Under the pieces are notes generated by a model. That model had not been told where the DNA came from, ran no database searches, and saw only the letters and a list, made by a program, of their open reading frames with translations. A stretch of DNA of 64,000 bases. Source: Luteimonas saliphila (lineage in GTDB: Bacteria > Pseudomonadota > Gammaproteobacteria > Xanthomonadales > Xanthomonadaceae). The position numbers were made by a program, and so were the translations under genes. The stretch spans positions 62,001-126,000 of the forward strand of contig NZ_JAETWA010000014.1 in assembly GCF_016774335.1 (NCBI RefSeq), read 5' to 3'. Positions within the stretch are counted from its first letter, which is position 1, and each line of letters opens with the position of its first letter. Shown here piece by piece: positions 28,457 through 51,533 of this stretch.

Positions 28457-30118
28457 ATGTCTCGTGTCCTGTTCCGTGCCGCCGCGGCCTGTGCCTGCCT
28501 GGCGCTGCCCTCGTTCGCCTACGCGGCGACGTATACCGTCGGCCCCTCGGGCCGCCAATACACCCAGCTGTCGACGCTGGTCGACAGCGTCGACCTCGGC
28601 CCCGGCGACATCGTCCTGGTCGACGGCGGCGCGACCTACAGCGGCAACATCGTCGTGCGCAGCAGCGACGGCGGCGCCGCCGGCAATCCGGTGACGTTCC
28701 GCTGGAACCGCTCGGTCGGCGCGACCCGGCCGGTCCTGAGCGGCGGCGCGCACACCATCAAGTTCCAGCAGTCCAACCACGTGGTGTTCGAAGGCTTCGA
28801 CGTGCGCGGCGGAACCTCGTCGTGCCTGTTCAGCGAGGCCCACGACGTCACCGTACGCGACACCATCATCCGCGACTGTCCGTCGCACGGCATCCTCGGC
28901 GCTGACAACAATTCCGGATCCTTCACGCTCGAATACAGCGAAGTGTTCAATTCCGGATCGGGCACGCACCGCCACCCGATCTACATGCAGTCCGACCAGG
29001 TGGCGTATCCGGGCTCGGTGTTCCTGATGCGCTACAACTACGTGCACGACGGCAACGGCGGCAGCCTGCTCAAGAACCGCCACGAGCGCGCGCTGATCTA
29101 CTACAACTGGTTCGAGAACTCGGCCTACCAGGAGCTCGAGCTGATCGGCCCCGACTGCGAGACGCAGCAGTCCGGCTGGTCGCCGAACCTGCGGCGCGAG
29201 GACGTCGACCTGGTCGGCAACGTGATCGTGCACACGTCTTCCTGGCGCAACGCGATCCGCACCGGCGGCGACCTCAACGGCCGTAGCCAGGGGCGGCTGC
29301 GCATGGTCAACAACACCATCGTCTTCAACCGCCCCGGCATCGCCAACGCGGTCCTGGTGCAACTGGGCCAGGAGTCGCTGGAGATGCACAACAACGTGAT
29401 CTTCCAGACCGGTTCCGGCGCGGCGCCGAACGTCCTGCGGGTGCACGAGGCGTCGGAAGTGGAAACTCCGTATTGCGCGCCCACCAGTCGCGAGCCCTGG
29501 ACCAGCGGGCGCAAGGTGGCCGGCTCCAACAACTGGATCCAGAGCTCCGCGACCCTGGTCCCGCCCGAGTTGACGGGCACGCTGCGCGGTGCCGATCCGG
29601 CGTTCGCCGGCATCGGCCAGTTCCAGTTGCGACCGACGGCGAACAGCCCGCTGGTGTCCGCCGGCAACCCGCAGCCACCGTCGCCCTCCGCGTTCCCGTT
29701 CCCGTCGCCGCTGCTGTTGCCGCAATTCGATCCGCCGCTGCGCGCGAAGCTGGCGATGGGCGCGCAGGTCGCGCGCGTACTTGGCGCACGCATCGACATC
29801 GGCGCGCTGGAAAGCGCGGGAGGCGGTGGCGCACGCCTGCGCCGCAACGGCTCGGCGCCGCTGGCTCCAGCCGGAGCGTCCGCCTCCGCGGGCGCGTCCG
29901 CGCCGCGCGCGACGGTCGGCCACGGGTCCCGGACGCAGGCCGCCAGCGCGGTCGGCGAGTCGACGCAAGCCCGGCCTGCAGGCGCGCACGCGCCTGCGAG
30001 CGCCCGTCTGGACGCCCGGCGCACGGATGTCCGGATCACGCCGCCGGTGGTGATGCTCTGGCAGCGATTGAGCGGTTGGTTCGGCGACCTGCCGGGTCGC
30101 GACGCCGCGCGGCGCTGA
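28457..30118 (+). CDS. Secreted right-handed beta-helix protein with novel C-terminal tail
   Basis: 553 residues. A signal peptide ends at SFAYA (about 23). Residues 24-400 read as a parallel beta-helix of the pectate-lyase type: short strands such as NHVVFEGFDVRGG, HDVTVRDTIIRDCPSHGI, and LRMVNNTIVFN. It has DxG-rich turns and Asn ladders but no assigned catalytic motif, so a glycan-binding or lyase function is only likely. From about 462 it has RRNGSAPLAP, a 54-residue Ala/Ser/Pro linker, then RITPPVVMLWQRLSGWFGD (526 on). The same module ends the FG-GAP protein at 35,674. No PEP-CTERM, LPXTG or T9SS signal is present. Confidence 0.8.
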   Translation: MSRVLFRAAAACACLALPSFAYAATYTVGPSGRQYTQLSTLVDSVDLGPGDIVLVDGGATYSGNIVVRSSDGGAAGNPVTFRWNRSVGATRPVLSGGAHTIKFQQSNHVVFEGFDVRGGTSSCLFSEAHDVTVRDTIIRDCPSHGILGADNNSGSFTLEYSEVFNSGSGTHRHPIYMQSDQVAYPGSVFLMRYNYVHDGNGGSLLKNRHERALIYYNWFENSAYQELELIGPDCETQQSGWSPNLRREDVDLVGNVIVHTSSWRNAIRTGGDLNGRSQGRLRMVNNTIVFNRPGIANAVLVQLGQESLEMHNNVIFQTGSGAAPNVLRVHEASEVETPYCAPTSREPWTSGRKVAGSNNWIQSSATLVPPELTGTLRGADPAFAGIGQFQLRPTANSPLVSAGNPQPPSPSAFPFPSPLLLPQFDPPLRAKLAMGAQVARVLGARIDIGALESAGGGGARLRRNGSAPLAPAGASASAGASAPRATVGHGSRTQAASAVGESTQARPAGAHAPASARLDARRTDVRITPPVVMLWQRLSGWFGDLPGRDAARR

Positions 30119-30166
30119 GGGCCGGCGGGACAGGGCCGGCAGTCGCCCACGTCCGCGCGCGAGCGT

Positions 30167-30877
30167 TCAGTCTTCGCGTCGCGCCAGGAACAGCGGATAG
30201 GGCGCCGTGTCCACGAGGCCGAGCGCTTCGCCAGCCACTTCGAATGCGCCGTTGACGATGTCCGCGAGGTTGCGACGCGCCTCGAACGGCGGATCGTAGA
30301 ACGCCTTGCGACGCAGGATCGAGAAGCCGTGCCGTTCGAGCAGCGAAGCGGCGTCGGCCGCGTCGTGGTGGCGGATGCCCGGTGCGGGGTTGCGGTCGCG
30401 GTCGCGTTGGCCGCTCATCCGCATCCACACCCGCGGCAGGAACTGCGAGGTCTTGGTGGCGATGATCAGATGGCCGCCGGGTCGCAGCACGCGCCGCAGC
30501 TCGGCCACGTAGGCCTCGTCGTCCGGAACGAACGGCAGGACCACGATCGACAGCACGATGTCGAAACTGGCGTCGGCGAAATCGACGCCATCCGGCCGGC
30601 ACCGGTCGAACGGGATCGGCGCGTACTGCTGGCGGGCGAATTCGACCCGCCGTTGCTCGACGTCCACGGCGTGCAGGTCGGGGTGGGTCTTCGCCGCCGC
30701 CCAGGCGATGTCGCCCCAGCCGAAGCCGTAGTCGAGAACGCGCCCCGGCGGAAGTTCGCGCAGCAGCGAGAGGACCGCCTGGTGGCGCCGGCGCTGGTGG
30801 GCGTCCTGCGGTGCATCGCGATAGAAGTGGCGCGGTATTTCGGTGCTCACGCGTACGGGTTCGATCACTGCATCCAT
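30167..30877 (-). CDS. SAM-dependent methyltransferase (class I)
   Basis: 236-residue Rossmann-fold methyltransferase. Motif I is GRVLDYGFGWGDIAW, the acidic loop AVDVEQRRVEFARQ binds the ribose, and DASFDIVLSIVVLPFVPD plus ELRRVLRPGGHLIIATK form motifs II-III. The methyltransferase-11 type acts on small molecules; a sugar or lipid acceptor in exopolysaccharide synthesis is likely from context only. The frame is open for 36 further codons upstream, but this ATG gives the natural N-terminus. Convergent with the beta-helix gene and divergent from the glycosyltransferase at 31,394. Confidence 0.82.
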   Translation of the reverse strand: MDAVIEPVRVSTEIPRHFYRDAPQDAHQRRRHQAVLSLLRELPPGRVLDYGFGWGDIAWAAAKTHPDLHAVDVEQRRVEFARQQYAPIPFDRCRPDGVDFADASFDIVLSIVVLPFVPDDEAYVAELRRVLRPGGHLIIATKTSQFLPRVWMRMSGQRDRDRNPAPGIRHHDAADAASLLERHGFSILRRKAFYDPPFEARRNLADIVNGAFEVAGEALGLVDTAPYPLFLARRED

Positions 30878-31393
30878 GGGTCGCTTCGATTCGTTGTCGC
30901 CGGGCGCACCGGTCCACGTCGCGATGGAGCCGGGCAGGGCTGGAGTTACCGGGCTGATACGGGTTAAGCGCGAGGATTCGGCCACGTGCCGGGCGGGTGG
31001 GGCGGGCGTGGGGACGGAACAGGGGGCGGGCTTGCGGGTACGTGGCCGATTCCGGGTCCATCCACCGTATCAGCTACTGTTCGCCGTGCTTGCATGGGAC
31101 CCGGCAGCGGGTCGACGGCGCGAAAACCCCATCAGATTGGATACGAATGAGTGTTGTTGTCGCAGGATGCCGTGGTCCGGTCGCAGTCTCGCCAGGGGCC
31201 ATCGTCGATGCGCCGGACCGGTCGTGAGTTCGATGCGGTTGGTCGCGAGGCCGGGGCCAGAGTCCCGTGGCCCGACGATCGGCGGGCGGCCGCCACCCGC
31301 ACCGGCTGGCGGCCGCTGTTCCGTCGCCAGCCTGCGCGCGTCGAATCCGGGACGCCGTGGAGCGCCACGCGTCGCTCTGGACCGGGTCAGACC
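30878..31393. other. Divergent intergenic region with hairpin
   Basis: 516 bp between the methyltransferase and a GT4 gene; no gene recognised. A perfect 10-bp inverted repeat GCGGCCGCCA / TGGCGGCCGC (31286-31295, 31307-31316; 11-base loop) lies about 80 bp before the GT4 start without a T tract, so it is a leader structure rather than a plain terminator. AT-richer sequence at 31,130-31,155 is the likeliest promoter area. Confidence 0.4.
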
Positions 31394-32506
31394 ATGAAAG
31401 TGCTGCACCTGACCCTCTCCTACAGCCACGGCGGACGCCGCGAGGCGATCGCCGCACTGGCGGCGGGTCTGCGCGAACTGGGCGTCGACAGCCATCTGGG
31501 TTGCCTGGATGCGTTCGGTTCCGAGGCAGGCGAACGCGCGCTGTTCGCCGGCAGCTTCAACCTGGACCGCCATGGCCTGTTCGACCGCGCGGCCTTGCGG
31601 CGCCTGCGCGACTATTGCCGCGAGCACGCCATCGACGTGGTGCACGCGCACGACGCCGCCAGCGAGGCGATGGCCGCGCTGGCGATGCCGGACAAGGGTC
31701 CGGCACTGCTGATGAGTTTCCATCGCACGCGCGGCCTGGAAACGGCGCGCCTGCGCGACCGTGTACGCAACGCGCTGGTGGGTTTGCGGGTGGGTGCGGT
31801 CGTCACCGCGTCGCAGGAGCGGCTGCGGCACTACATCGACAACAACTATGTGGATCCGGCGAAGGTGTCGTGCATCCCGCTGGGCATCGATCTCGAGCGT
31901 TTCCGGCCTGATCCGGCGGCGCGCGCGCGCACGCGGCGACACATCGGCGCCGCCGACGCGACGCTGGTGGTCGGAACGGTGGGCCATTTCGGCCCCGAGA
32001 AGGGCGTCGATCTCGCGATCGGCGCGTTCCACGAATTCATGCGTCGCGAACCGGAGCGCGATGCGCGACTGCTGGTGCTCGGCCAGGGCGATGCGTCGCA
32101 GGAAGCGAAGCTGCGCTCGATGGTGGCCGCGGATCTCGCCCACCGCGTCCATTTCTGCGGCTTCCAGGCCGACCCCGAGCACTGGTTCCCGGGCTTCGAC
32201 GTGTTGCTGCATGGCGCGCGCGACGAAGCGTTCGGGTTGGTGCTGGCCGAGGCGCAGGCCTGCGGCGTGCCGGTGGTGGCGGCGCGGGTCGGCGGTATCC
32301 CCGAGGTGGTGCTCGACCGGCGCACCGGACGCCTCGCGCCGGTGCCGGAGGTGGACTCGCTGGCGGATGCGCTGCAGCAGGTGATCGCCAGCACCGCATA
32401 CCGGGCCGAACTGGCGCGGCAGGCGGTCGAACACGCGCGCCACCAGTTCAGCCGCCAGCGCTACGCAGGCGAATTCCTGCAGATCTACCGTCGCCTGCTG
32501 CGCTGA
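31394..32506 (+). CDS. Glycosyltransferase family 4
   Basis: 370-residue retaining GT-B glycosyltransferase. Begins MKVLHLTLSYSHGGRREAIA. The C-terminal nucleotide-sugar domain has VGTVGHFGPEKGVDLAIGAF, and the GT4 EX7E element is in DEAFGLVLAEAQACGVPVVA followed by GGIPEVV. It would add a sugar to a lipid-linked precursor at the inner-membrane cytoplasmic face. The next gene, the PLP decarboxylase, converges on it with a 15-bp gap. Donor and acceptor are not predictable. Confidence 0.9.
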   Translation: MKVLHLTLSYSHGGRREAIAALAAGLRELGVDSHLGCLDAFGSEAGERALFAGSFNLDRHGLFDRAALRRLRDYCREHAIDVVHAHDAASEAMAALAMPDKGPALLMSFHRTRGLETARLRDRVRNALVGLRVGAVVTASQERLRHYIDNNYVDPAKVSCIPLGIDLERFRPDPAARARTRRHIGAADATLVVGTVGHFGPEKGVDLAIGAFHEFMRREPERDARLLVLGQGDASQEAKLRSMVAADLAHRVHFCGFQADPEHWFPGFDVLLHGARDEAFGLVLAEAQACGVPVVAARVGGIPEVVLDRRTGRLAPVPEVDSLADALQQVIASTAYRAELARQAVEHARHQFSRQRYAGEFLQIYRRLLR

Positions 32507-32521
32507 GGCCGGGGACGGGCG

Positions 32522-33802
32522 TCAGACCAGCGCTTCGACCACGTCCGGATGCCCTAGAAACTGGCGCGGACTGGCCGAGCGTCCGTAGGCGCCGGACTGG
32601 AACACCACCACCAGGTCGCCCGGCGCGGCGCGGTCGAGCTCGACGTCGTCGCCCAGCAGGTCCAGCGGCGTGCACAGCGGGCCGACGACGGTGGCCTTCT
32701 CGCGCTCGCCGCCACCGCCGTTGATCGCGATCGGATAGTTGCGGCGCATCACCTGCCCGAAGTTGCCGGATGCGGCGAGGTGCTGGTGCATGCCGCCGTC
32801 GGTGACGAGGAACACCTTGCCGCGCGAGCGCTTGCGATCGACGACACGGCAGACGTAGATGCCCGCTTCGCCGACGAGATAGCGGCCCAGTTCGACCACC
32901 AGGCGCGCCTGCGGTCCGAAATCGACGGCGGCGCGCGCGGCGAGGGCATGCAGCGATTCGATCACCGGGCCGGTGTCGAGCGACTGGTCGCGGGCGCTGT
33001 AGGGGATGCCGAAGCCGCCGCCGAGGTTGAGCCAGCGCAGCGGAGCGGGGAACTGGTCCAGCCATTCGCGGACCAGCGCGTAGCTGCGCTGCTGCGCTTC
33101 GACGATCGCGTCCGCGCGCAGGTTCTGCGATCCGGCGAAGCAGTGGAATCCCTCGAACGCGAGCCCGGCTGCGGCGATCCGTTGCAGCAGCGCCGGGACC
33201 TGGTCGTCGTCGACGCCGAACTGCCGGGCGCCGCCGCTCATCTTCATGCCTGAGGACTTGAGTTCGAACGGCAGGTTGACGCGCACCGCGACCCGCGCCG
33301 GCGTGCCGTTGCGCTCCGAGGCGCGGGCGAGGATGTCGATCTCGCGGAACGATTCGAGGTTCACCACGATCCCGGCCGCCTGCGCCCGCTGCAGTTCCGC
33401 TTCCTGCTTGCCCGGTCCGGCGAAGCTCACGTGCTCGCGGTCCATGCCCGCGTCCAGCGCGATGCGCAGTTCCCCGGCGGAGGCGACGTCGAAACCGTCG
33501 ACATGCCCCGCCATGAATCCCACCAGCGCCGGCATCGGGTTCGCCTTGATCGCGTAGTGCAGCAGCACGCCGGGCGGAAACGCGCTTCGCAACCGGCGTG
33601 CACGTTCGGCCAGGCGGGCGCGATCGTAGAGGTAGCAGGGCGTCGCGCCGAGTTCGTCGACCACGCGCGACAGCGGTCGGCCCGCCACGAGCCACTCGCC
33701 GTCCGGCCCGCGGGGCCAGCGCGCGTCCGGACCTGCATCACCTTTCGCGGCGGACGACGCGACGGGAGCGGTATTCGTCGCAATTGGAGCGGTCTCAGAC
33801 AT
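32522..33802 (-). CDS. PLP-dependent decarboxylase, exosortase-A-locus type
   Basis: 426-residue fold-type III decarboxylase (diaminopimelate/ornithine decarboxylase family), resembling the subgroup found in XrtA-associated exopolysaccharide loci. PLP lysine is Lys86 in LLHYAIKANPMPAL. The phosphate-binding glycines are in LRWLNLGGGFGIPYS, and the C-terminal active-site element VGPLCTPLDLL contributes the conserved Cys. Expected product is an amine from an amino-acid substrate, possibly loaded on the ACP of this locus. The frame is open upstream, but this ATG best fits the family. Divergent from the alpha-toroid lipoprotein. Confidence 0.88.
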   Translation of the reverse strand: MSETAPIATNTAPVASSAAKGDAGPDARWPRGPDGEWLVAGRPLSRVVDELGATPCYLYDRARLAERARRLRSAFPPGVLLHYAIKANPMPALVGFMAGHVDGFDVASAGELRIALDAGMDREHVSFAGPGKQEAELQRAQAAGIVVNLESFREIDILARASERNGTPARVAVRVNLPFELKSSGMKMSGGARQFGVDDDQVPALLQRIAAAGLAFEGFHCFAGSQNLRADAIVEAQQRSYALVREWLDQFPAPLRWLNLGGGFGIPYSARDQSLDTGPVIESLHALAARAAVDFGPQARLVVELGRYLVGEAGIYVCRVVDRKRSRGKVFLVTDGGMHQHLAASGNFGQVMRRNYPIAINGGGGEREKATVVGPLCTPLDLLGDDVELDRAAPGDLVVVFQSGAYGRSASPRQFLGHPDVVEALV

Positions 33803-34033
33803 GTCTTCAACAAACCCTTGATTTGCAATAGGATACGCCGGATCCGGAGTGGCCAGCGCCCACCGGGCTCGCGCCACCTGTCCGGTTCCTGACCGCGGGA
33901 TGTGACGCATTGCCCCGCTGGCTGCCTCAGGGGGCCGGAGACGCGACCCTATGCCACAGCCGCTCGAACGGGAACCGCCCCGCGCAGCGGATTGTGCCAG
34001 GGCGCCTCACGACGCCTGCCCGGAGACACGCCC

Positions 34034-35692
34034 ATGCCGTTACCCCGCCTTGCCCGTCGCCGCGCGTTCGCGTTCGCGCTCGCGACCTGCGTATTGGCAT
34101 CGCCCGCGCTGGGCGGCTGCGCCGAGCGGGCTCCGGCGGCGTCGGCCACGACGACTGCGACGGCAGGGGCTGCGGACGCGGACGCCTCCGGGCAGGGGCT
34201 GCCGCAGACCATCACGCTGACCCCCAATGGCGACGTCGGCGCCAGCGAGCCGGTGACCCTGGGCATCCCGTTCGCGCAAGGCGCGCTGACCGACGCCGGA
34301 CAGGTCCGCATCCTCGACGCCCGGGGCGACGAAGTGCCGGCCTTCGTCCGGCCGACGCTGCGCTGGCATTGGACCGACGACAGCATCCGCGCCGTCAAGG
34401 TGCAGTTCGTGGCGGACCCGGAAGGAGCCTATCGCTTCGACACCTCGGGTCCGCGCACCCACTCGATCGAAGAACTTCCCTACGACCGCGGCACGCGCGC
34501 CGGCAAGATGGACGCGCCGGTGCCGCGCCTGCTCGCCACGCTGGATCCGGCCTGGCTGGTGCATTCGGGCATCGCCGGCCCGCAGCTGGCGCACGATCCG
34601 AAGCGCCGCTACGACCGCTACGTGGACCGTCAATGGCCCTGGGCCAAGGACGCGCCGTATTCCGGCGCGCACGCCTTCCTGTTCGACCGGGCCGCGGTGC
34701 TCGGCCTGCAGTACGTGCGCAGCGGCCGTCCCGACGTGTTCGCGGAGTTCTACAACTCGGCCACGTTCTACCTGTCGAAGATCAAGCGCGGCGGCAACGG
34801 CGGCGGCTGGCCGGACTGCACCGGCGGCTGGGAGTTCGACGACGTCAATGCCTGCGACCCGAAGTACAGCTACGTCGCTCCGCACCTGCTGCTGGTGGCG
34901 CTGGCCGGGGACGACAGCCGCCTCGGTCCCGAAACCGTCGCGCACATGGTCGTGAACCAGGTGAAGGGCGGCTGGAGCATGCCGATGGGGCCGTACACAG
35001 GAGGCGGCCAGGCCTGGACCGAGCGCCAGGTCGGGCTGGCGCTGGAGCATCTGGTTTCGGCCTACGAGCTGACCGGGGCGGCAGACACCAGGCGCCACAT
35101 CCTGGACCTGATCGGCTGGTTGCATGCTCATCAGCAGACGCCACCGGGCGACGACCCGGCGACCGGGGCCTGGACGCACTCCTGGCAGGCCCATGAAGGC
35201 AGCGACCGCGATCCGGCCACCGACGTGCGCGGGGCCTCGCCGTGGATGAGCGCCAACCTCGTCGGCGGCCTGTGGCGCGCCTGGCTGGTCACGCGGGACG
35301 AACGGATCCCGGTGATGCTGCGCGACTTCGGCCGTTACCTCGAACAGCACGGCTTCGTGCCCGACGCGCTCGCCGGCAACTGGCGATCGGCCTGCAATCC
35401 CGGCGGCACGATCGGCTGGTACTTCTCATCGGGCATCGCCCCGCAGGCGCCCATCGTGGCGATCCAGGACAGCGAGGGCTGGGGCTCGGACGCCCACAAC
35501 CCGGAGCTGCTGATGGCGGTCGCCGCCGCGCGCCATTTCGAAACCGACCCGCAATGGCGGGACAGGCTTTCCAGGCGCGCCGACCGGCTCGCCCTCTATC
35601 TCAATCCCGACTGCGCAGCGCTCTCGCACACGCCGCGCGCTTTCAACTGGCAAAATCGCAACCCGGAGTTCGCATGGCTACTCGCGCAATGA
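34034..35692 (+). CDS. Lipoprotein with RIFT-barrel and alpha-toroid, possible polysaccharide lyase
   Basis: 552 residues. Lipoprotein signal with lipobox LGGC (Cys29) after an Arg-rich start. Residues about 55-150 (TLGIPFAQGALTDAGQVRIL, VRPTLRWHWTDDSIRAVKV) resemble the N-terminal beta domain of PcRGLX/YetA-type rhamnogalacturonan lyases. The remainder is helical, with repeated Trp/His-rich turns such as GGGWPDCTGGWEFDDVNA and HSWQAHEGSDRD, as in (alpha/alpha)6 toroid lyases and hydrolases. A role in trimming the locus polysaccharide is inference. Its stop lies inside the start of the FG-GAP gene, so the two are co-translated. Confidence 0.75.
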   Translation: MPLPRLARRRAFAFALATCVLASPALGGCAERAPAASATTTATAGAADADASGQGLPQTITLTPNGDVGASEPVTLGIPFAQGALTDAGQVRILDARGDEVPAFVRPTLRWHWTDDSIRAVKVQFVADPEGAYRFDTSGPRTHSIEELPYDRGTRAGKMDAPVPRLLATLDPAWLVHSGIAGPQLAHDPKRRYDRYVDRQWPWAKDAPYSGAHAFLFDRAAVLGLQYVRSGRPDVFAEFYNSATFYLSKIKRGGNGGGWPDCTGGWEFDDVNACDPKYSYVAPHLLLVALAGDDSRLGPETVAHMVVNQVKGGWSMPMGPYTGGGQAWTERQVGLALEHLVSAYELTGAADTRRHILDLIGWLHAHQQTPPGDDPATGAWTHSWQAHEGSDRDPATDVRGASPWMSANLVGGLWRAWLVTRDERIPVMLRDFGRYLEQHGFVPDALAGNWRSACNPGGTIGWYFSSGIAPQAPIVAIQDSEGWGSDAHNPELLMAVAAARHFETDPQWRDRLSRRADRLALYLNPDCAALSHTPRAFNWQNRNPEFAWLLAQ

Positions 35693-37509
35693 ACCGATCC
35701 CGCGCCCTGGCGCTGGCGCTGCTGCTCACCGTCGCCGGCGCCGGCCTGGCCGACCAGCGCGGGACGATGCCGGCGCGCGCGGCGGGGGGCGCGGTGGAGA
35801 AGGCGGCCGGCCCGCTCACTTTCGTCAACGAGGCCGCGCAGCGGGTCGACTCGATTCCAGACTCGCAGTACCGCTTCGACGCGTTGTTCGTCGACTTCAA
35901 CAGCGATGGCTGTCCCGACGCGTTCGTCGTCTCGCACAGCGACTGGGGTGCGACCACGCGCCTGTGGAACAACCGCTGCGACGGCAGCGGCACGTTCCAG
36001 CACGTGCCCAGCAGCCAGACCAACCACTATGTCGCCGGCCAGCCGCTGATCTCCGGCTGGGTTACTCGGCTGGATTTCAACGGCGACGGCAAGCAGGATT
36101 TCTGGGGCCGGCACGGCGGCGCGATGAGTGCGCGCTACCGCAATGGCTCGACCAGCGGTGCGTACTTGCCGCGCTTCGCGGCGAAGGAGAACGGTTGCGA
36201 GGGCTATTGCGCCTTCGCCGACATCACCGGCAGCGGCAACCTCGAGGTCGTCACCGATACCCGGCAGGTCCTGAACATGGGCGGGCAGCAACTGCGGCCG
36301 GCATCGGGCAGTCCCGCCCAGCAGGTGGTCGGCGACGTCACCGGCAACGGCTGGCCCGACATCGTGCAGCCGGCGCGCGGCGGCTACTGGCGCAACGACG
36401 GCGGCACGCTGACATGGGTGGCGGTCCCGGCGTTCGTCGGCGGCAGCTTCATGCAGATGCTGCTGGCCGATTTGGACAACGACGGCGACCTGGACCTGTT
36501 CTACCTGGACGGCAACCAGTTCAGCGCCAGCAACCGCGGGCTGCTCTACCGCAACAATGGTTCGGGTGGTTTCAGCGACGTCTCGTCCGCGTCCGGCCTG
36601 TCCGGCATCGCCGCGAGCGACTACGGCAACATCATCGCCGCCGACTTCGACAACGACGGGCGGCAGGACCTGATGGTGTCGGGCGTGGGCGATTCGGTGC
36701 GGATCTACCGCAACAACGGCAACATGACGTTCAGCGCATCCACCACCACCAATTTCGGCCAGGCGTCGGGAGACGCCGCAGGCGGCTGGCAGTCGGGAAA
36801 GCCGCGCGCGGACGTCGCCGACTTCGACAACGACGGCCGGCTCGACATCGTCAAGACCCAGTTCCAGAGCAACCTCGGCCTGTGGCGCAACACCACCAAC
36901 ACCGACGGCAACCGCTGGATGAAGGTGCGCGTGCGCGGTACCGCGGGCAACAGCGACGGGGTCGGCGCCAGCGTGCGCTGGTACCGGCCGGGCACCAGCC
37001 AGCTGGTCGCGCACATGCCGGTACTGGTGGGCGAACAGCACCCGCAGACCCACCTGCACACCGGCCTCGGCAACAATGCGACCGTGGACCTGGAAGTGCG
37101 CTTCCCGAACGGCGGGCCGACGCACCGCTTCGCGAACGTCGCCAGCAACCAGGAAGTGATCGTCTACCGCAACGGCTGCAAGCTGGACAACTGGCGCCCC
37201 GGCAACGGCTGGCCGATGGACGCGCCCGCGAACTGCTCCTTCGCCAGCGCACCCCGGCGTCGCAACGGGAGGGCGCCACTGGTGCCCGGCGACACCCAGG
37301 GCGCCGCGCCTGCCCAGGCGGCGGCGCAGACGCCACGCGAGGCGTCCGCGCCGGTGGCCGCGTCACGACCTGTACAACAGGCCGCGGCCGTGGCGGCGTC
37401 GTCGACGCGCCCGCCGCAGCCGCAGGTCCTGCGCATCACGCCGGCCGCGCTGGTGCTCTGGCGCAGGTTCCAGCACTGGTGGGGCAGTGTTTTCCCCGCA
37501 AGGGAGTGA
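35674..37509 (+). CDS. Secreted FG-GAP/UnbV repeat protein with novel C-terminal tail
   Basis: 611 residues. Signal peptide ends about LLLTVAGAGLA. A beta-propeller of FG-GAP/VCBS repeats carries calcium-binding motifs DFNSDGCPD, DFNGDGKQD, DLDNDGDLD, DFDNDGRQD and DFDNDGRLD. An ASPIC/UnbV domain follows, with GVGASVRWY and HTGLGNNATVDLEVRFPNGG. From about 529, RRNGRAPLVP, an Ala/Pro/Gln linker and RITPAALVLWRRFQHWWGS (587 on) match the tail of the beta-helix protein at 28,457. Start taken as the ATG with GGAG five bases before it; an ATGA overlap start at 35,689 is the alternative. Confidence 0.85.
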   Translation: MATRAMNRSRALALALLLTVAGAGLADQRGTMPARAAGGAVEKAAGPLTFVNEAAQRVDSIPDSQYRFDALFVDFNSDGCPDAFVVSHSDWGATTRLWNNRCDGSGTFQHVPSSQTNHYVAGQPLISGWVTRLDFNGDGKQDFWGRHGGAMSARYRNGSTSGAYLPRFAAKENGCEGYCAFADITGSGNLEVVTDTRQVLNMGGQQLRPASGSPAQQVVGDVTGNGWPDIVQPARGGYWRNDGGTLTWVAVPAFVGGSFMQMLLADLDNDGDLDLFYLDGNQFSASNRGLLYRNNGSGGFSDVSSASGLSGIAASDYGNIIAADFDNDGRQDLMVSGVGDSVRIYRNNGNMTFSASTTTNFGQASGDAAGGWQSGKPRADVADFDNDGRLDIVKTQFQSNLGLWRNTTNTDGNRWMKVRVRGTAGNSDGVGASVRWYRPGTSQLVAHMPVLVGEQHPQTHLHTGLGNNATVDLEVRFPNGGPTHRFANVASNQEVIVYRNGCKLDNWRPGNGWPMDAPANCSFASAPRRRNGRAPLVPGDTQGAAPAQAAAQTPREASAPVAASRPVQQAAAVAASSTRPPQPQVLRITPAALVLWRRFQHWWGSVFPARE

Positions 37510-48712: not shown

Positions 48713-50259
48713 GCCGCGGCTTCCGCGCGGCGCGCCGCCCAGACGAGGATGCGGCCCACGAAGGCGGGACGCCCCTTGCCAAAGCGCGCATGCATCTGCT
48801 GGAAATGCTGCAGGTCGGCCGCGCTCCAGAAGCCGAGCAGCACGGTCGCGATGGCGTACAGCGCCGCGAGCAGCGCCCCGCCGATCGCCAGCGTCGGCAC
48901 CGGCGGAAGATGGCCACGGACCGGCCATGCGGCGCCCGCCGCGGCCGTCGCCGCCAGCAGCACCCGCGCGATGCGCGACCATTCCAGGCGCGCCCCGCTG
49001 TAGTGCAGTGCGAGGCCGATCACCAGCGATCCCGTCAGCACGCTGGTGGCGGCGAACGCGGCGATCGCGCCGTTCAGCCCGTGGCTGCGGATCAGCGCGA
49101 CATCCAGCCCCACCTTGACCAGCGAACAGGCCAGCACCGCGATCATCAGTGCGCGCTGCCGGTCCGATCCGAGCAGGTAGCCCGATGCCGCCTGCGACAG
49201 CATCGGGATCGCCCCGGCCGCGAGGCAGCACGCGAACAGGAAGGCGGCCGGGGCGAACGCCGCGCCGTAGAGCAGCCTGATGATCTCGTTGGCGAACACC
49301 ACGCCGAACGCCACCAGCGGTGCCGCCAGGGCGGCCAGGTAGGTGGTGGACATCGCCAGGCGCCGGCTCGCGACCTCGCGGCCCTGGGCCAGCGCATTGG
49401 CCATCATCGGCAGCAGCAGGGCGCCGAAGACGCCCGGCACCAGCAGCAGCGCGCCGCTGGCGAGCTGGAAGGCGACCTTGAACTGGCCGGCCGAGGCGGA
49501 GGAGTCGAACAGGGTCAGGAACAGCACCTCGACCTCGCTCGCGGTCACGAAGCTGACCGCCACCGTGACCGCGACCAGCGCGGTGTAGCTGCGCAGGCGC
49601 CTGCGCGTGTCCTGGTCGAGCGGCTGGCGCGTGGCCCGCGGCGGCAGCAGCGGCGCGACCTGGCGGCGCGAGATCCACCAGAACACGAAACTCGAGAGGG
49701 TGAACGTGCCCAGGAACCATTCCATCGGGCCGTCGAGCCACCACACCAGAAGGATCAGCAGCAGATTGAGCGGCGCGACGATGATCGCGATGACCGCGGT
49801 GGCGCGGAAGTTCTCGTAGCCCTTGGCGATGCCGATGTTGAGCATGTACGACGCGCGCAGCGCGGTCGTCACCAGCAGGATCAGCAACAACAGCCCGTGG
49901 TTGAAACCGGGCATCAGCCGTTGCCCCTGCAGCAGGAACAGCGCGGTGCCGCCCAGCAGCACGACCGCGAGGAAGCCGGCCTGCACGCGCCACGCCCATC
50001 CCAGCAGCGAGCGGATCTGCGCATCGCGATCGGAACCACGAAGCTCGGCCACGAACTTGATGACCGCGCTGGCGACGCCGGAGTTGGTGATCACCACCCC
50101 GGTGGCCACCAGCCAGATCACCAGGCTGTAGGCGCCGAAGTCCGCCGGACCCAGGTGCCGCGCGATGATGATCGACGTCAGCATCCCGAGGAAGTACTCG
50201 GTGTAGATGCCGACCGACGAGAACAGCGTGTTGCGGATGACCCGGCCGCGCGTGCTCAT
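48709..50259 (-). CDS. Wzx-type polysaccharide flippase
   Basis: 516-residue MOP-superfamily transporter with about 12-14 hydrophobic helices. N-terminal NTLFSSVGIYTEYFLGMLTS and ARHLGPADFGAYSLVIWLVA are the signature of polysaccharide flippases. It would move lipid-linked repeat units to the periplasm. It lies next to the O-antigen-ligase-like gene, as expected for a Wzx/Wzy-dependent pathway. 4-nt overlaps on both sides. Confidence 0.92.
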   Translation of the reverse strand: MSTRGRVIRNTLFSSVGIYTEYFLGMLTSIIIARHLGPADFGAYSLVIWLVATGVVITNSGVASAVIKFVAELRGSDRDAQIRSLLGWAWRVQAGFLAVVLLGGTALFLLQGQRLMPGFNHGLLLLILLVTTALRASYMLNIGIAKGYENFRATAVIAIIVAPLNLLLILLVWWLDGPMEWFLGTFTLSSFVFWWISRRQVAPLLPPRATRQPLDQDTRRRLRSYTALVAVTVAVSFVTASEVEVLFLTLFDSSASAGQFKVAFQLASGALLLVPGVFGALLLPMMANALAQGREVASRRLAMSTTYLAALAAPLVAFGVVFANEIIRLLYGAAFAPAAFLFACCLAAGAIPMLSQAASGYLLGSDRQRALMIAVLACSLVKVGLDVALIRSHGLNGAIAAFAATSVLTGSLVIGLALHYSGARLEWSRIARVLLAATAAAGAAWPVRGHLPPVPTLAIGGALLAALYAIATVLLGFWSAADLQHFQQMHARFGKGRPAFVGRILVWAARRAEAAA

Positions 50260-51533
50260 GACGCCGCCATCACGAACAGCACCTTGACCACCAGCCACAG
50301 CGCGATCGCGCTGCCCAGCGAAGCCACGCACCACTTGAACCAGTCGCGTCGCACGCTGAAGACCGGAAGGCCCGCCCAGCGCTCCTGCGCGCCGCCGTAC
50401 CAGCCGGTCACCAGTCCCAGCAGGATGTAGAGCAGGATCACGTAGCTGCGGCTGAGGAAGAACGCGCATGCGAAGAAGCCGACCATCGCGATCAGCAGGG
50501 TCATCGCCATGCGGCGCTCCTCCTCCCACGCCTGCTGGTGGTCGGGGTCCTCCATGACCGCCGGCAGGCGCAGCACCATCACCGGCATGAGCACGCAGTA
50601 GCCGACCATCGCCAGCCAGACCGTGTAGCCGATCAGGCCGGTCTCGGCCAGCACCAGCACGAACGAGTTGTGCGCGGTGAGGAAGGTGTGCTCGGTGAAG
50701 TTGCCGACGCCGACCCCGAACACCGGGTTGGCCAGGAACATCTGGATGCCGTCGTACCAGGTCTCGATGCGGCCGTAGGCGGACGACTCGCCGGCGTCGA
50801 GTTCCTGCATGCGCGTGGGCAGGGCCATCAGCACTGCCATGCCCGCGGCACCGAGCGTGCCGGCGACCACCAGCCCGCGCCGCAGCCACAGCCACACGCC
50901 CGCCATCGCCATCACCGCGAGGAACGAGCCGCGCGAATCGGTGAGGTACACGCCGTAGAGCAGGGCGACCGCCACCGACCACCAGAACAGGCGCCGCAGC
51001 CCCATCGCTCCGCCGCGCCCACCCATCAGCAGGGCCATCGGGATCGCGATGATGAACAGCATCGCCAGGTCGTTGGGATCGCTGAAGATGCCCACGTACT
51101 GGATGCGACCGTCCTGCACGGTCGGCATGCCGGTCCAGCCCTGGCCGAGCTTGACCTGCTCGATGCCGTGGATGGTCAGCACCAGCGCGCACAGCGCGAT
51201 GACCCACATCATCCGCAGCATGTTCCTGGGCGAGTGGCCGGCCTGGGCGATCAGCACCAGCGCGATCAGCGCGGGCAGGAAGTGCAAGAAACGCGAGATC
51301 GCGCCGCCGGCCCAGCCGTTCACGACCATCGAGAACATGCCGATGACGATGAACACGACCAGCAACAGGTAGGTCGGCTGCCGGAACGGCCGGCGTTCCG
51401 AGCTGAGGGCCCAGCCGCCGAGCGCGCCGAGCATCGCGATCGGCAGGATCGGGATCCCCATGTCGACCAGTGCGGGGTATTCCTGAGGGCGGATCAGCAC
51501 CAGCGCCAGCCAGACGAGCAGGAACAGCATCAC
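50256..51533 (-). CDS. O-antigen ligase/polymerase family protein (XrtA-locus type)
   Basis: 425-residue membrane protein with about ten helices and a large periplasmic loop (SDPNDLAMLFIIAIPMALLM...DSRGSFLAVMAM...AHNSFVLVLAETGLIGYTVW). The HNSFV-LAETG block is the Wzy_C ligase signature. The N-terminal VWLALVLIRPQEYPAL and the layout resemble the putative O-glycosylation ligase of exosortase A loci. It is the only polymerase/ligase candidate here and may polymerise or transfer the glycan. GTG start in a GTGA overlap; the next codon is ATG, an alternative. Confidence 0.87.
   Translation of the reverse strand: MMLFLLVWLALVLIRPQEYPALVDMGIPILPIAMLGALGGWALSSERRPFRQPTYLLLVVFIVIGMFSMVVNGWAGGAISRFLHFLPALIALVLIAQAGHSPRNMLRMMWVIALCALVLTIHGIEQVKLGQGWTGMPTVQDGRIQYVGIFSDPNDLAMLFIIAIPMALLMGGRGGAMGLRRLFWWSVAVALLYGVYLTDSRGSFLAVMAMAGVWLWLRRGLVVAGTLGAAGMAVLMALPTRMQELDAGESSAYGRIETWYDGIQMFLANPVFGVGVGNFTEHTFLTAHNSFVLVLAETGLIGYTVWLAMVGYCVLMPVMVLRLPAVMEDPDHQQAWEEERRMAMTLLIAMVGFFACAFFLSRSYVILLYILLGLVTGWYGGAQERWAGLPVFSVRRDWFKWCVASLGSAIALWLVVKVLFVMAAS

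Follow-up and report, generated by a model that had tools for sequence, protein, structure and literature searches.

The C-terminal helix of Escherichia coli PBP5 (DacA) binds the inner membrane. C-terminal elements of another kind define the PEP-CTERM, GlyGly-CTERM and MYXO-CTERM systems, where a common C-terminal region is found on unrelated signal-peptide proteins; these and LPXTG are the best-known C-terminal tags, and they combine a transmembrane helix with a sorting enzyme, as described in excerpts of two reports (PMC3237569, PMC11980579). In this work we analyzed a stretch of 64,000 nucleotides of Luteimonas saliphila (contig NZ_JAETWA010000014.1, positions 62,001 to 126,000 of the forward strand; hereafter the window, from genome G000, contig G000:C12), in which two proteins, A and B, end in a similar two-part tail. 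A preliminary description of the window had proposed that they share RRNGxAPLxP, a linker of 54 (A) or 48 (B) residues and a RITPxxxxLWxRxxxW block on unrelated folds, and had considered sorting, docking, anchoring and processing as possible roles. The arrangement was confirmed in the sequence, and Pfam gives a beta-helix for A and FG-GAP repeats for B, in agreement with unrelated folds. The features are:

28457..30118, + strand: protein A, right-handed beta-helix protein of 553 amino acids (aa), signal-peptide-like start (N-terminus by eye), tailed; open reading frame (ORF) with PF13229 and PF05048 above cut-off
29840..29869, + strand: part 1 of the A tail, RRNGSAPLAP
29870..30031, + strand: Ala/Pro-rich linker of A, 54 aa
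30032..30115, + strand: part 2 of the A tail, RITPPVVMLWQRLSGWFGDLPGRDAARR; profile E 8.1e-15, predicted helices at residues 530-543 and 545-552
35674..37509 (start 35674 or 35689), + strand: protein B, FG-GAP/UnbV-like, signal-peptide-like start, tailed; PF13517 at 1.7e-33, PF07593 (UnbV) below cut-off
37258..37287, + strand: part 1 of the B tail, RRNGRAPLVP
37288..37431, + strand: Ala/Pro-rich linker of B, 48 aa
37432..37506, + strand: part 2 of the B tail, RITPAALVLWRRFQHWWGSVFPARE; profile E 3.2e-13, predicted helix at residues 585-601 of 606

The block after the linker is RITPPVVMLWQRLSGWFGD in A (from 30032) and RITPAALVLWRRFQHWWGS in B (from 37432), and a regular expression for RITP..LW.R, applied to the six frames of the whole window, matched at these two sites only. 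No sequence relative was found in PDB for A or for the untailed toroid-like protein that overlaps B, and PHROGs gave nothing for A, B or that protein.

Like PEP-CTERM/exosortase, GlyGly-CTERM/rhombosortase and MYXO-CTERM/myxosortase, the tail is a common C-terminal region on unrelated signal-peptide proteins. However, the 22 blocks gathered here from five families (A to E) have no PEP, Gly-rich or Cys motif and no transmembrane helix: Pro-Glu-Pro is absent from all of them, bearing out the earlier remark that there is no PEP motif, none contains Cys, and no PEP-CTERM, GlyGly-CTERM or MYXO-CTERM model in NCBIfam matched one member each of A-E at E up to 10. The PEP-CTERM/exosortase reading was rejected, since it fails on motif, transmembrane helix and enzyme. 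The tailed proteins resemble PBP5/DacA in having a short Trp-rich amphipathic helix (predicted in the tails) at the extreme C-terminus of what would be an exported enzyme acting on nascent glycan, and the spacing LWxx[FL]xxW[WF] is common to many tails and to DacA of the same genus, that of G000 ending in FFKRLWHEFLMWWNAD. They differ in their carrier folds, the long Ala/Pro linker, the RRNGxxPLxP motif and the RITP start, and in that the tail is present on several unrelated carriers instead of one family. Membership of the PBP5/DacA family itself (DD-carboxypeptidase fold, PBP5_C) was discarded, given that Pfam shows beta-helix, FG-GAP and GH11 domains instead and nothing above cut-off for family C.

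A common tail on five protein families

A profile made with 14 A and B tails, run on 52 genomes of the genus, added eight strong sites with E between 8.7e-11 and 3.3e-4, and these turned out to be the C-termini of three more families, C, D and E. With all 22 rows in the profile, 22 sites were recovered with E 3.1e-16 to 2.6e-8 per genome, the next site being at 0.009. Conversely, a profile of B-E tails that included no A tail detected the block in 42 of the 120 A homologues listed, out of 939 found, counting blocks at most 25 residues from the end of the homologue and with E < 1e-3. Blocks taken from different families among A-D had a mean identity of 0.42-0.46, versus 0.07-0.09 after shuffling. 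Because of the gap in E values and of the ability of each partial profile to find the tails it had not been given, the match between tails is, judged by sequence similarity, far beyond chance. The consensus is about RR[NS]GxxPLxP for part 1 and about RITPPxxxLWxRLxxWF for the block, with a variable Ala/Pro-rich linker between them. A C-terminal Trp pattern was present in 21 of 325 called proteins of the neighbourhoods, all 21 tailed, and missed one tailed protein.

Family C comprises homologues of the gene at 34034-35692, which is untailed in the window, and has tailed copies in G034 and G046, plus a third copy in G043 in which part 1 is visible before the contig ends; it has no Pfam match above cut-off, and a toroid-like fold is suggested by a weak match to PF19501. 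Family D is a second beta-helix protein (domains in Pfam) encoded in the polysaccharide locus of G020, G038, G027, G044 and G002, and is not joined to A at a BLASTP threshold of 1e-15. Family E is a GH11 xylanase of G002 (PF00457, 2e-64). Thus, by their sequences, five families with at least three folds end in the common two-part tail. The carriers are predicted to be exported, the N-termini of A, B and a single representative of C, of D and of E having been judged signal-peptide-like by eye, and most of them likely act on polysaccharides. The proposal of a common C-terminal module on unrelated exported proteins, not explained by domain homology, therefore stands and extends to three more families; the profile search suggested in the preliminary description was run, and the tail was not limited to close homologues of A and B, the outcome named there as a refutation.

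Tails were found in 12 of the 52 Luteimonas genomes, with only one to three per genome. Six weaker matches in the genus (E 0.01-0.13) were read and dismissed, since they lie inside membrane proteins or in ORFs that are improbable. The search was extended to 395 genomes drawn from the family, scoring at most 20 first-look candidates per genome: 62 genomes matched with E no higher than 0.05, including 50 from outside the genus (best 4e-4), and none of the eight borderline loci read among those 50 held a signal-peptide-like protein ending in the tail, so that no convincing tail was found outside Luteimonas. The best extra-genus match, L117, was rejected, as it ends a 239-aa ORF that reads like a non-coding frame. 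When 5.8 billion proteins were queried with a limit of E 10, the tail region of A yielded a single protein, one of its orthologues, and that of B yielded only B, in a search too insensitive to show absence. The tail has no significant model in Pfam (A-E), NCBIfam (one member each of A-E) or PHROGs (A, B), and no description of such a tail was found in our searches of the open-access PMC literature. Amphipathic C-terminal anchors and tagged C-termini are already known kinds of element, and the RITP tail matches no described model or paper that we found.

Conservation and loss of the tail

Eight orthologue pairs of A-D were compared, giving identities of 0.67-0.92 for part 1, 0.30-0.63 for the linker (0.56 and 0.32 in two B pairs) and 0.60-0.86 for the block, with part 1 and block both exceeding the linker in all eight. 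Values of dN/dS in the blocks ranged from 0.12 to 1.82 and are noisy because of the short length. One P and one W are invariant across the five families, and a second W, an R and an I/V are strongly conserved. The linker of A in L. marina (L153:10267-12012) contains some 40 additional residues, which resemble a translated interspersed repeat, and therefore linker length appears to be free.

Protein A is present in 13 genomes of the genus, tailed in nine, with other Trp-rich ends in two (G006, G049) and untailed in G029 and G033, where it terminates at the position of part 1. B terminates before part 1 in G029 and G040, and in G033 its final 28 or so residues are an unrelated sequence; the block appears in no frame of the G029, G033 and G040 genomes. 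Seven genomes have both A and B, and both are tailed in five and untailed in the other two. In the gene trees the untailed Luteimonas A sequences and the untailed B sequences each form one clade inside the tailed ones, adjoining G012, and the agreement in tail state looks like a single joint loss, not seven events. A second untailed lineage of B, from G083 and G092 of another family, is also placed among tailed sequences. Visual comparison spoke against gene conversion between the two kinds of tail, because orthologous tails are more alike than those of A and B within the same genome.

These data bear on the idea that the tail is a lineage-specific extension that does nothing in itself and was multiplied by duplications inside a single genus. 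Its confinement, in the 395-genome sample, to Luteimonas and its absence from one clade of the genus would fit, but the greater conservation of block and part 1 over the linker in every orthologue pair and the presence of the same module on unrelated genes at separate loci make it very improbable.

A predicted interfacial helix and its possible roles

AlphaFold models of A and B, made with 9 and 6 sequences respectively and with a mean pLDDT of about 60, place a helix at residues 530-543 of A (pLDDT about 55), followed by a second one at 545-552, and at 585-601 of B (pLDDT about 66-81). The predicted helix starts at the Pro of RITP in B and one residue later in A. The preceding regions have low scores (about 23-33 for residues 441-529 of A; below 50 for 519-581 of B), with pLDDT 22-36 in the linkers before the helices. 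No transmembrane stretch is apparent in the 22 tails, the best 19-residue Kyte-Doolittle mean being 0.06-1.35, and the net charge of the last 28 residues is -2 to +5. Across the 22 blocks the hydrophobic moment is greatest at 100-110 degrees, the helical period. When the best 18-mer of each end is taken, the mean interface free energy is -2.5 kcal/mol in the tails versus 0.7 kcal/mol in 283 other C-termini (Mann-Whitney 1.2e-7, uncorrected for relatedness), and two DacA ends reach -4.3 and -4.8 kcal/mol. The block is thus predicted to be an amphipathic helix leaning to membrane interfaces, which adds to the earlier statement, upheld here, that there is no clear membrane helix.

The best explanation, which we hold with moderate confidence, is that the tail is a portable two-part module acting as an in-plane membrane anchor. 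Each carrier would be exported by its predicted N-terminal signal peptide, the linker, predicted to be disordered, would serve as a flexible tether, and the Trp-rich helix would lie on the membrane surface, keeping the enzyme at the inner membrane on its periplasmic side, by analogy with the C-terminal helix of E. coli PBP5. In favour of this reading, membrane-favouring ends also occur in the same slot of other A homologues: among 110 of them with a length of at least 500 aa, -4 kcal/mol or less was reached by 25/45 ends that are neither RITP nor RYRR, beside 11/41 RITP and 3/10 weak RITP ends. The anchored proteins, with A-D as putative polysaccharide-acting enzymes, could act on the polysaccharide leaving the Wzy-type machine of the same locus, at the place where the polymer emerges. 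If so, amphipathic anchors of the PBP5 kind can be passed on as modules, in the form of a tag without transmembrane helix that is reused across several folds and, in a xylanase, takes the place of a carbohydrate-binding module, and it would offer a handle for finding the enzymes of the periplasm by which exopolysaccharide is tailored where it exits. Among the options raised initially, that of an anchor is the best supported, although by means of an amphipathic helix on the membrane and not as a processed sorting signal.

Several observations weigh against this anchor. Amphipathicity is modest: column permutations reached the observed moment in 169 of 5000 cases with the Fauchere-Pliska scale and 344 of 5000 with that of Eisenberg (p about 0.03-0.07), in a test that was run after a mostly non-significant per-sequence shuffle, in which 16 of 22 tails, compared with shuffled versions of themselves, missed p 0.05. 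Several tails are weak in interface free energy (up to +1.8). Among the 110 A homologues compared, those with a basic RYRR end show no membrane propensity in the same slot (0/14 at -4 kcal/mol or less, median +2.6). Conservation at the R, I/V, P and W positions exceeds what a purely physical anchor would require, part 1 (RRNG) has no role in the model, and the clade of the joint loss keeps the DacA helix (G029, L246), so that there was no general loss of such anchors.

The conserved positions would suit a docking partner, and the main rival is that the block serves for docking to, or recognition by, a particular protein, be it an export-machine subunit, an outer-membrane receptor or a processing enzyme. 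The invariant P and W and the strongly conserved second W, R and I/V across five families speak for it, as does the loss of the tail from A and B on seemingly one branch, consistent with loss of a shared receptor, and so does the location of 18 of the 22 tailed genes inside a polysaccharide locus. On the other hand, that joint loss counts as a single event, there are only one to three tails per genome, and no common gene cluster was found in the stand-alone contexts of C, E and A of G011 (14-20 kilobases (kb) examined), as expected if no linked partner is needed. Nor was a candidate receptor found in the stretches examined, no genome-wide receptor search having been made. Exosortase (PF09721) was detected in 0/52 genomes of the genus, in searches whose control was positive in 1 of 14 named genomes, despite the decarboxylase listed below. 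All this leaves docking as a tentative and rather unlikely alternative; of the initial sorting-signal idea, the common C-terminal module is retained and the dedicated enzyme is not, in view of the exosortase result, the lack of a common cluster and the few tails per genome.

Neighbouring genes and alternative ends

The window locus was read as a polysaccharide locus from its glycosyltransferase, polysaccharide deacetylase and Wzy_C genes. The neighbouring features mentioned in the text are:

32522..33910, - strand: PLP-dependent decarboxylase, exosortase A system-associated (TIGR03099; 555.1 bits, cut-off 478.45)
34034..35692, + strand: toroid-like protein (putative fold), untailed, overlapping B; weak match to PcRGLX_1st (PF19501, RIFT-barrel), E 0.009, below cut-off
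50256..51530, - strand: Wzy_C O-antigen ligase/polymerase family protein (PF04932, 7.3e-17)

The Wzy_C protein gives some ground for a further alternative, namely that O-glycans are attached to the Ala/Pro/Ser/Thr-rich stretch that begins with NGxxP, the helix serving merely to bring this acceptor to a ligase in the membrane, for instance this protein. The linker resembles the glycosylated C-terminal region of Neisseria AniA, an NG-AAP and Ala/Ser/Pro-rich low-complexity stretch (PMC3643930). However, the linker is the poorly conserved part of the tail, and PglL_A (PF15864) is found in none of the 12 tailed genomes, its only occurrence among the 52 being in the untailed G005, while ligases of the PilO or TfpM type were not searched genome-wide; we consider this role improbable. 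In G005, the one genome of the genus concerned, two PglL_A matches (L248, L249) lie about 2 kb apart on contig G005:C410.

The toroid-like copy adjoining B is untailed in the window and also beside the untailed B of G033 and G040, whereas the stand-alone second copies of G034 and G046, unlike the copy beside a tailed B, carry their own tail. In G083 and G092 (L060, L061) FG-GAP and toroid-like homologues are joined in one open reading frame, and this fusion suggests that B and its window neighbour may form a complex. From this and from the distribution of tails among the toroid-like copies we infer that there could be one tail per functional unit.

The end of the carriers also varies. Eight GH11 proteins were found in 7 of the 52 genomes (L235-L242), all seven tail-positive; seven of the eight run past the catalytic domain into a similar region, which matched CBM60 in the two scanned, and the tailed GH11 paralogue, exclusive to G002, has the tail in place of this CBM60-like region. 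In the A homologues the ends differ by lineage, being the RITP helix, another Trp-rich or strongly hydrophobic end, a basic RYRR end or FxxGF[EDQ]. The last of these is found in 13 of 14 more distant A-homologue loci (L021-L033).

To judge from their name, choice-of-anchor domains precede alternative anchors. There is a likeness to them in that residues 413-450 of protein D, just before the tail, match choice_anch_Q (NF041518; E 1.6e-4, 21.9 bits) and that A homologues have differing tails in the same place, but the D match is below the curated cut-off of 25, and no match to NF041518 was found in A. It is conceivable, if doubtful, that Lysobacterales use exchangeable C-terminal address tags without transmembrane helix on the same polysaccharide-acting families (RITP in Luteimonas, RYRR in Pseudoxanthomonas, on A only, and FxxGFE elsewhere in the order), each with its own membrane or receptor; RITP would then be the first defined of such tags, independent of sortases and exosortases.

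The A homologues of Pseudoxanthomonas (L166-L171, L174) have a conserved basic end, ..RYRR[GS].V[RK], and within 12-21 kb around them the RYRR block was seen on no other protein, leaving aside ORFs that resemble non-coding frames. FxxGFE ends are also present in a B homologue (L045) and two toroid-like homologues (L208, L209) from outside the family, and the FxxGF[EDQ] end is possibly another unnamed C-terminal tag. In the form [ILF][FL]x[NDSG]GF[EDQ], this second common tail is located at or near the C-terminus of beta-helix, FG-GAP and toroid-like homologues and of an unrelated ORF (L032:3-1403), its carriers belonging mostly to other families of the Lysobacterales.

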